33,584 nt of DNA from an uncultured Granulosicoccus sp. (GTDB taxonomy: Bacteria > Pseudomonadota > Gammaproteobacteria > Granulosicoccales > Granulosicoccaceae): positions 1-33,584 of the forward strand of contig CALKLO010000041.1 of assembly GCA_937991945.1 (NCBI GenBank), read 5' to 3'. The position numbers and the translations under genes were made by a program. The notes under the pieces were generated by a model, which saw only the letters and a program-made list of their open reading frames with translations, was not told the origin of the DNA and made no database searches. Positions 26,508 through 30,886 of this stretch are shown piece by piece (positions within the stretch are counted from its first letter, which is position 1; every line of letters begins with the position of its first letter).

Positions 26508-27380
26508 TTAAATCTCGGCCAGTTTTCTATAGTTGTCGTAGCGCCAGCGGGCAATCTCCCCGCTTTCTAGACCGTCAAGCACGCCGCACGCAGGCTCAAC
26601 GGTATGCGAGCAATCGCCAAACCGGCACGACTGCGCTGCCCGCGCCATTTCATGGTAACCCTGACGAACCGTGTGATTGGAGAAATGTGACACTGAGAAC
26701 TGACGTACACCCGGTGAGTCGATAATTGCGCCCTCGCCTGGCATGTCGTACCAAAACGTCACTGAGGTGGTGTGAGACCCAAGACCTGTTGCTTTGGAGA
26801 CAGCACCGACTACTAAGTCTTTGTCTGGCAGAAGACGCTGAATAATCGAAGACTTCCCAACACCACTGGCGCCGACCATTGTGAAGGTACATCCTTTGAG
26901 TTCATCAAAGAGAGGCTGCATGCCATCTTCTGTTTTTGTATCAATTAAGACTGCGGGGTAACCGATTCGTCGATAGGTGGCGATGAGATCATCAACCTCC
27001 ACGCGCTCATCTGCGCTCATACAGTCGGCTTTGTTGAAAATAATAAGCGCTTCTACATCAGCTTGGTGTGCCGCTAGGCAGAATTGATCGATAAGCAACG
27101 TATCGATACCCGGTGGATTCGACGAGACGATGCCTAAGTGGGTCAAGTTTGCGGCTAGCGGTTTAGACCAATGGCGATCTTTACGCTCTAACACGGTATC
27201 TCGAGGTACCAGTTCCTGCACTCTTAACAGGCCGTCCTCTCTTAAACACTCTATGCGGTCACCCGCTACCATCAGCGGCACTTTCGCTAATGGATAGGCC
27301 TGCTCAATGGCGGTATCGCCATCCACCTGCACCGCCACCGTTTTCCTGAAATTCGCCACTACGCGGGCTTTGATTATCAC
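26508..27380 (-). CDS. rsgA: Small ribosomal subunit biogenesis GTPase RsgA
   Basis: RsgA (YjeQ) is a GTPase that helps release assembly factors during late 30S maturation. The circularly permuted motif order is evident: NKAD (116-119) comes before the P-loop GASGVGKSS (170-178) and DSPG (221-224). The zinc-binding motif C252-x4-C257-x-H259-x5-C265 follows. At 290 residues it is shorter than E. coli RsgA (about 350) and lacks the basic N-terminal and C-terminal tails. The start is GTG at 27380. It is divergent from orn, the usual neighbour, across 214 bp. Confidence 0.96.
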   Translation of the reverse strand: MIIKARVVANFRKTVAVQVDGDTAIEQAYPLAKVPLMVAGDRIECLREDGLLRVQELVPRDTVLERKDRHWSKPLAANLTHLGIVSSNPPGIDTLLIDQFCLAAHQADVEALIIFNKADCMSADERVEVDDLIATYRRIGYPAVLIDTKTEDGMQPLFDELKGCTFTMVGASGVGKSSIIQRLLPDKDLVVGAVSKATGLGSHTTSVTFWYDMPGEGAIIDSPGVRQFSVSHFSNHTVRQGYHEMARAAQSCRFGDCSHTVEPACGVLDGLESGEIARWRYDNYRKLAEI

Positions 27381-27594
27381 GAGCTTAGAGCGAATCTGTG
27401 AAATGAAGCATCAGATGAAAGTGTTTCGGTAGTTAAGTTGCACAATGTATGCTTGCATAAAGTTAGGCAGTCCATTTAGACCCAAAAAAAGGATCTAACG
27501 CTTTAGTTGGAAGATTAAGACAAAAATTTCTGGCAATCAGGCAGCAATCGTCAATACTTCTGCATCACCAAAGAATAAAAAACGAGACAACTTG

Positions 27595-28140
27595 ATGTCA
27601 ATAAACAATGACAATCTTATTTGGGTCGATCTGGAAATGACAGGTCTAGAGCCTGAGACCGACACTATTATAGAGATTGCAAGTATCGTGACTGATCCTC
27701 AGCTTAACACTCTGGCTGAAGGTCCGGTTATCGCTATCCACGTCGATGATGAGCGCTTGCTTGCAATGGATGATTGGAATACTGAACACCACACCGCCTC
27801 TGGGCTTGTGGATCGTGTGCGCGAGAGTACCCATAGCTTAGAGAGCGCTAGTGCTGACACCATCGCTTTTCTAGAACCGTGGATCAATGCTGGCAAAAGC
27901 CCAATGTGTGGAAACAGCATTGGGCAAGATCGTCGCTTCATGGTTAAGTACATGCCAACGTTGGAAGAGTTCTTCCACTACCGCAATGTAGACGTCAGCA
28001 CGATTAAGGAATTAGTCAAGCGCTGGAAGCCCTCTATCAGTGACGGATTTTCAAAAGAGAATACCCACCTGGCGATGGATGATATTCGCGAAAGTATCGC
28101 GGAGTTACGCTACTACAGAGAGCAAATTTTCACTATTTAG
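27595..28140 (+). CDS. orn: Oligoribonuclease
   Basis: Orn degrades RNA dinucleotides, including pGpG from c-di-GMP turnover, and is essential in many gammaproteobacteria. The 181-residue enzyme has the DEDDh exonuclease motifs: [22 protein letters not shown] and [10 protein letters not shown]. Start ATG 27595 is preceded by a TTG one codon earlier. The 214-bp divergent region with rsgA has no promoter I can name confidently. Confidence 0.97.
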
Positions 28141-28151
28141 ATCGGTAATTA

Positions 28152-28174
28152 CGGCGAGTGTCATTATCTCGCCG
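28152..28174 (+). terminator. Hairpin after orn
   Basis: CGGCGAG (28152-28158) and CTCGCCG (28168-28174) form a perfect 7-bp stem with a 9-nt loop, 11 nt after the orn stop. No T-run follows, so it may be a transcript-end stabiliser rather than an intrinsic terminator. Confidence 0.4.
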
Positions 28175-28354
28175 GATTCCAGAGTATTTAGCGAAAATAT
28201 CTGCGATTTTTACCCGAAAAACGTACTTTTTGGGCTTGACGAGCCTGAAAATATCAGCGCTTATGCACAGGTAAAATAAAAGTTGATGCAGTTCAAATTA
28301 TGTTGTATGTGAACGTACAGCTACTTTAAGAATGCACTGCAACCTATTGAATAT

Positions 28355-28379
28355 ATTGAACAAACAGGCATTGTTCAAT
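28355..28379. repeat. AT-rich perfect inverted repeat
   Basis: ATTGAACAA (28355-28363) and TTGTTCAAT (28371-28379) are perfect 9-bp arms with a 7-nt spacer, followed by TTATAAAC. The surroundings are AT-rich. It could be a dimeric regulator site or a weak hairpin. It lies about 60 bp from the DnaA-box cluster. Confidence 0.6.
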
Positions 28380-28437
28380 TTATAAACAATCTAACAAAAC
28401 TGTTACAGGACGTGGGTTTCATCCCTCAATTATGGTT

Positions 28438-28481
28438 TCATCCACAATGTTATCCACAGATTTTGTGGATAACGTGGATAA
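28438..28481. promoter_or_regulatory. Cluster of four DnaA-box-like sites
   Basis: The sites are TCATCCACA at 28438-28446 (plus, one mismatch), TTATCCACA at 28450-28458 (plus, perfect), TGTGGATAA at 28464-28472 (perfect on minus), and CGTGGATAA at 28473-28481 (minus, one mismatch). The two perfect boxes face each other as part of a 10-bp inverted repeat (28449-28458/28464-28473) with a 5-nt spacer. The two minus boxes are a tandem 9-bp repeat of GTGGATAAC. A further TTATGCACA, fitting the TTATNCACA consensus, lies at 28261-28269. Sequence identity to known DnaA boxes is direct; binding is inferred. Confidence 0.65.
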
Positions 28482-28592
28482 CTCACGTCAATAAAAGGGT
28501 CCCACGACTATTAAGGTATCAATGAGCGTCAATTTTTTGCTTATTTCACTGATACTGAGCCGCGAAAAAAGTGTGTCGTCAGCAGCTCGATA

Positions 28593-28619
28593 AGCGCCTT
28601 CACTGAACGTGAAGGCGCT
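28593..28619. terminator. Strong hairpin at the 3' end of icd
   Basis: AGCGCCTTCAC (28593-28603) and GTGAAGGCGCT (28609-28619) form a perfect 11-bp stem with a 5-nt loop, 17 nt past the icd stop on the minus strand. There is no long T-run after it on the minus strand. The stem strength suggests the transcript end of icd, and it would also block transcription from the left. Confidence 0.6.
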
Positions 28620-28636
28620 AACTAAAAACAACCGAT

Positions 28637-30886
<2,250 letters not shown>

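Follow-up and report, generated by a model that had tools for sequence, protein, structure and literature searches.

In Escherichia coli, the DARS core consists of three DnaA boxes, of which boxes I and II hold two ADP-DnaA molecules head to head, expelling ADP, as described in the accessible part of the source (PMC8682772). According to the sections available of a review, DARS1 and DARS2 share the spacing of these boxes and box I opposes boxes II and III (PMC5742627). The core of DARS1, which lies in the bioD-uvrB gap, reads TTATCCACT-5-TGTGGATAA-3-TGTGTATTA and that of DARS2, which lies beside mutH, reads TTATTCACC-5-TGTGGATAG-3-TGTGAAGAA (gaps in bp). DARS2 additionally requires IHF and Fis, as stated in the accessible text of PMC4245941, and is described in the available parts of two sources as conserved in E. 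coli-related beta- and gammaproteobacterial species (PMC4245941; PMC5742627); for Vibrio cholerae, the part of the report at hand describes DARS-like sequences at the E. coli positions (PMC6090056). The inactivating site datA is, in its minimal form, 183 bp long and combines a single IHF site with the high-affinity boxes 2 and 3, which have the same direction, and with box 7 of low affinity (PMC5742627, accessible part).

Here, a cluster of DnaA boxes between orn and icd was analyzed in a 33,584-nt stretch of DNA (the window), contig CALKLO010000041.1 (C41) of an uncultured Granulosicoccus sp. with a genome of 3.83 Mb in 158 contigs. Judged from its sequence, the element at positions 28261-28481 is probably a DARS controlled by Fis and IHF that would convert ADP-DnaA to ATP-DnaA (probability roughly 0.6).

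The box cluster in the orn-icd gap

A preliminary description of this DNA had reported four DnaA box 9-mers within 44 bp and a further TTATGCACA about 170 bp away, and the four 9-mers were located at the positions given there, the further box at 28261-28269 on the plus strand (Table 1). Its view that such a density is unlikely to arise by chance was borne out, since first-order Markov simulations of the window (n = 500) never produced more than two boxes per 44 bp, compared to the four observed (0-1 mismatch); over the window as a whole, the number of boxes is unremarkable (10 at ≤1 mismatch vs. a mean of 7.1, sd 2.8, in shuffles). The perfect pair faces inward as described, and inward-facing perfect pairs with a gap of 0-30 bp occur at only two places in the genome, namely in the orn-icd gap and near priA, the second (G000:C31:14462) being an identical 23-mer in opposite orientation to the window copy. 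The two minus-strand boxes are tandem as sequence, but not as members of the triad that matches the known sites. Likewise, the idea of a DARS-like three-box core stood, but the triad chosen for it (one plus and two minus boxes, gaps of 5 and 0 bp) did not: the gaps of 5 and 3 bp known from E. coli DARS are found in the triad of the minus-strand box at 28464 with the plus-strand boxes at 28450 and 28438. With box I opposed to boxes II and III at these gaps, this triad agrees with the three-box definition of DARS, and its minus-strand reading is TTATCCACA-AAATC-TGTGGATAA-CAT-TGTGGATGA. The extra box TTATCCACG has a counterpart in the nearest relative (G022), where the similar box TTATGCACG also abuts box I at the equivalent place. 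The Fis site, the IHF site and the inclusion of the box at 28261 as a part of the element are additions to the earlier picture.

Table 1. Features of the element and its flanking genes in the window.
Feature	Coordinates	Strand	Remarks
DnaA box I, DARS-type core, TTATCCACA	28464..28472	-	Core has 1/27 mismatch vs. the three-box pattern
DnaA box II, TTATCCACA	28450..28458	+	Opposed to box I, 5 bp gap as in E. coli DARS1/DARS2
DnaA box III, TCATCCACA	28438..28446	+	Tandem with box II, 3 bp gap as in E. coli DARS1/DARS2
Extra DnaA-like box, TTATCCACG, abutting box I	28473..28481	-	Outside the triad
Fis-type consensus GnnYAnnnnnTRnnC	28373..28387		0 mismatches; +50 from box III; offset conserved
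IHF-type site WATCAANNNNTTR	28340..28352	-	1 mismatch; +85 from box III; offset conserved
Distal DnaA box IV, TTATGCACA	28261..28269	+	+168 from box III; offset and orientation conserved
orn, oligoribonuclease, flanking	27592..28140	+	NF003765 (NCBIfam); 3' end towards the element
icd, monomeric NADP isocitrate dehydrogenase, flanking	28637..30865	-	TIGR00178 (NCBIfam); 3' end towards the element

Sites of the two kinds that DARS2 requires, for IHF and Fis, are thus present beside the core as consensus matches, and binding of both proteins is predicted. The host genome encodes DnaA, IHF alpha and a Fis homologue, the best Fis match extending over the full length at 72 bits, under the NCBIfam curated cut-off of 99. 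Beyond box IV, at about 28228-28240, a GTCAAG motif was observed that recurs at 42 of 79 family cores and at 9 of 102 class cores; because of the latter count it is placed outside the class-wide element. The host genome possesses a second copy of the element on contig C31, between priA and pntB and upstream of priA, about 159 kb from dnaA.

Two other identities were rejected. The gene dnaA, whose location had been called for in the preliminary description, lies on contig C31 and the element on C41, and host DnaA as a query matched 0 of 180 core-bearing regions (1.5-8 kb), which argues against the element being an oriC beside dnaA. A known RNA family was not recognized at the element either, as a scan of the window at gathering thresholds returned two tRNAs only.

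Conservation of the core, the offsets and the genomic positions

Of 48 family genomes, 45 yielded the core in searches with the three-box pattern (≤3 mismatches over 27 fixed bases), and of 232 class genomes, 160 did, whereas the remaining 3 and 72, respectively, gave none at that threshold; in a phylum sample that includes class members it was present in 81 of 199 genomes, and the reversed pattern, used as control, yielded 0 in each sample. In the phylum sample, DARS1-like sites were also recovered in four genomes that, judged from the sequence, are likely enterobacterial (G438, G307, G419, and G426); they serve as a positive control. The inward perfect pair was found in 38 of the 48 family genomes, and among the matches listed for this family its gap is 5 bp with one exception, although 0-30 bp were allowed, and the third box follows 3 bp after the pair in most. 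Cores were also seen outside the class, in families f173, f177 and f181, and nine matches occur in the single genome G309. In the large-genome Granulosicoccus relatives, 10-13 core matches each were counted, a few of which are second readings of one palindrome. Their dispersed extra cores (G045:C7 114521-198753, G044:C17 and C40, G043:C2, and G020 at 3.08 and 6.56 Mb) mostly keep the Fis consensus near +50, without box IV and usually without the IHF site; on G045:C7, seven cores lie within 84 kb, on a single strand throughout.

Outside the core, an alignment of 19 orn-side units from 11 genomes revealed few conserved blocks, among them the Fis consensus, the IHF-like site and TTGTGCATAA. The offsets of Fis site, IHF site and distal box beyond box III are 50/85/168 in the window and 50/85/169 in the priA copy, and comparable values were obtained for 102 class cores from 79 genomes: the exact Fis consensus stands at +51 in 33 of them, up to 49 have an IHF site (≤1 mismatch) at +85 or +86, and up to 66 carry a DnaA box on the minus strand, taken relative to the core, within +165 to +172. 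This class set derives from 100 regions hand-picked among the sites listed, mostly one or two per genome; duplicates were excluded, and each core retained has at least 200 bp on its upstream and 350 bp on its downstream side. When mismatches of ≤1 for Fis, ≤2 for IHF and ≤1 for the box were tolerated in narrow windows (loose composite), all three sites were observed at 61 of the 102 class cores (51 of 79 genomes) and at 44 of 79 family cores (array copies and a few palindromes read twice among them), as compared to 0/102 and 0/79 at each of three shifts of the windows; the loose composite was lacking at 41 class and 35 family cores. The strict composite was found at 28 of the 102 class cores.

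Another 81 named sites, in 80 loci listed of at least 118 stretches, were chosen by core and Fis alone, so that Fis is a selection criterion in this second set; it overlaps with the family set in 9 of the 81 sites and with the class set in none. It covers Dyella, Luteibacter, Rhodanobacter, Woeseiaceae, Chromatiales, Rhodocyclaceae, Nitrosomonadales and others, and 8 of the 80 loci are titled Granulosicoccus or Granulosicoccaceae. Here, the IHF site (≤1 mismatch) was present in 52 of 81 vs. 0-3 in shifted controls, and an exact box IV in 42 of 81 vs. 0-1.

Clustering identified a PriA-like gene on the box-I side, reading away from the core, as the commonest neighbour (44 of 181 cores), and host PriA as a query found matches in 30 of the 100 class regions and in 32 of the 80 named loci. 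The priA-side core of the host genome (L001 1414-1535) starts roughly 90 bp away from the open reading frame of priA and may affect the priA promoter too. The E. coli priA-rpmE gap contains no core.

An orn could be located in 44 family genomes; the orn-side region was read in 27 of these, and a core was present downstream of orn in 11, all of one genus and always facing orn, about 270-460 bp beyond the end of the orn match. The preliminary description had taken conservation of the boxes at orn in relatives as a check of function and its absence beside the same neighbours as an argument against it; what was found, conservation in these 11 genomes, including the nearest relative, and its absence in the other 16, did not refute its proposal. 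Several genomes carry 2-4 copies in a row downstream of orn, about 480-650 bp apart (L106, L111, L112, L049, L142, and L110/L124), and in G044 the row seems to cross a contig break. In the class sample, a box cluster downstream of orn was detected in 0 of 29 other genomes (30 best orn matches, read up to 1400 bp; four stretches show a single near-box and three are short, 193-857 bp), host Orn as a query matched 0 of 180 core-bearing regions, and among the cores and orn matches listed, compared by eye, only the host genome has a core within 1 kb of orn.

On the scale of half a chromosome, with dnaA taken as the origin, four of six finished class genomes have cores at 0.07-0.25 and at 0.34-0.68, a fifth has its two cores at 0.68 and 0.71, and the sixth only one, at 0.16; of the four origin-near cores, three are beside priA. 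In G020, the GC skew (20 samples) places the terminus between 3.7 and 4.1 Mb, and the orn-side copies are at 0.72. Orientation with the replication fork was rejected as a general rule: all 8 scored cores of G020 point away from the origin, a count that omits two weaker matches (3834541 and the palindromic reading 4980221), but only 7 of 11 do so in six other finished genomes; six further genomes stand outside this scoring.

Given the same core and the Fis and IHF sites at fixed offsets, the same reaction as in E. coli is the best explanation. We propose, following the E. coli work, that boxes I and II would hold ADP-DnaA head to head via the AAA+ domains, that ADP would be lost, and that DnaA would be released and subsequently bind ATP. 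Fis and IHF would bend the flank and carry the DnaA bound to box IV onto the core, by which reactivation would take place at the proper time and in the proper growth phase. The rigid distances suggest such a loop, placing the distal box on the core.

Comparison with DARS1, DARS2 and datA and the alternative functions

DARS2 resembles the window element in its three-box core with gaps of 5 and 3 bp, in the possession of IHF and Fis sites and in a distal box about 170 bp off, but its distances of IHF site and distal box are not those of the window: the IHF-type matches of DARS2 stand at +58 and +74 as compared to +85, and its distal box at +176 on the plus strand as compared to box IV at +168 on the minus strand (strands relative to the core). 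The exact Fis consensus stands at +50 in the window and in DARS2 at +110 only, in a consensus scan that does not place the essential Fis sites of DARS2. Moreover, the core boxes of the window are closer to the consensus than those of DARS2, and the flanking genes differ. DARS1 shares the core geometry, but at the offsets of the window it lacks both a Fis and an IHF consensus, and it has other neighbours. Neither DARS position of E. coli corresponds to the orn-icd gap, and the sequence comparison points to a new DARS variant, distinct from DARS1, DARS2 and datA. The listed titles and abstract openings on DARS and its relatives, which cover subscription literature thinly and leave novelty unproven, mention no priA- or orn-linked DARS, nor such a layout.

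The main rival reading, clearly less probable than a DARS, is a datA-type site, at which IHF bending would join DnaA on boxes IV and III into a complex that hydrolyses DnaA-bound ATP, inactivation instead of reactivation; an element of this kind could also serve both functions, each at its own time. A datA-like function had been mentioned earlier as an alternative and has gained support, as E. coli datA shares the neighbourhood and orientation, rsgA-orn-(glyVXY)-datA, with the window, where rsgA likewise lies on the other side of orn, although in E. coli tRNA genes stand between orn and datA, and its box 2-IHF-box 3 layout is contained in the window element. In the E. coli sequence, the stretch from box 2 through the last box is exactly 183 bp long, in the order box2-56-IHF-84-box-3-opposed box, and the window reads boxIV-70-IHF-85-boxIII-3-boxII-5-boxI with boxes IV and III in the same direction. 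Both have an IHF site between same-direction boxes, 84 or 85 bp from one of them, which is followed by another box after 3 bp; however, the gap between the far-side box and the IHF site is 56 bp in datA vs. 70 bp in the window, and the low-affinity box 7 was not located. The pair of E. coli boxes at a distance of 84 bp from the IHF site most likely corresponds to boxes 3 and 4 of datA, which stand 3 bp apart when NC_000913 4391500-4395500 (L369) is compared with window 26511-28637; removal of box II and its 5 bp gap from the window element would leave boxes III and I likewise 3 bp apart. What speaks for the DARS reading is that E. coli datA lacks the triad (best match with 8 mismatches) and a Fis consensus at the matching place (best with 2 mismatches), and that the head-to-head pair of boxes I and II with its 5 bp gap, absent from datA, is the best-kept part of the element here. 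The position downstream of orn, a trait of datA that is present in the window, is not general in the class, and its sharing may be a coincidence in view of the 29 cluster-free genomes and the 0 of 180 core regions matched by host Orn; its common inheritance with E. coli datA, considered as well, is weakened by the same 29 genomes and by the listed cores away from orn.

Two further explanations are improbable. A plain DnaA titration cluster, with neither nucleotide exchange nor hydrolysis, would agree with the many cores of the large-genome relatives, many of them without IHF site or box IV, but the 5 bp gap where 0-30 bp were allowed and the fixed offsets of Fis site, IHF site and distal box exceed what titration needs, which makes this explanation rather improbable. 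Scarcely more can be said for control of transcription, by which DnaA would regulate orn or icd in the window, or priA beside the second copy: a regulatory role of DnaA in transcription is known, as described in the accessible part of PMC11317965, and the second copy is upstream of priA, the commonest neighbour class-wide, but the window element lies between the ends of two convergent genes, where it can be the promoter of neither orn nor icd, and in some relatives 2-4 copies are arrayed downstream of orn. Because of this position between two convergent gene ends, the element is more likely a chromosomal site for the control of replication timing than a promoter.

Implications for DnaA control in Gammaproteobacteria

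To our knowledge, the return of DnaA to its ATP form in bacteria outside the E. coli group is largely an open question. Since the datA layout and the DARS triad are united in this element, inactivation becomes the main competing function, and the boldest reading is that of a combined or ancestral element. Tentatively, and with somewhat less than even confidence, we suggest that core-50-Fis-20-IHF-70-boxIV may represent an ancestral DnaA nucleotide switch of Gammaproteobacteria, beta lineages included, in which the DARS triad and the datA loop are joined, in many cases as one origin-near copy beside priA and a second farther along a replication arm. E. coli DARS2 and datA would then be separated descendants, and in large Granulosicoccus genomes the switch would have multiplied, with a reduced form of core and Fis site spreading.

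The layout recurs in many gammaproteobacteria beyond the relatives of E. coli, in which such switches are described, and points to an early origin of Fis- and IHF-linked DnaA control within Gammaproteobacteria. With its fixed arrangement of about 220 bp, absent in the shifted controls, it provides exact fragments for tests in many species, and the origin of datA, which inactivates DnaA, and of DARS, which reactivates it, from a single element becomes testable.
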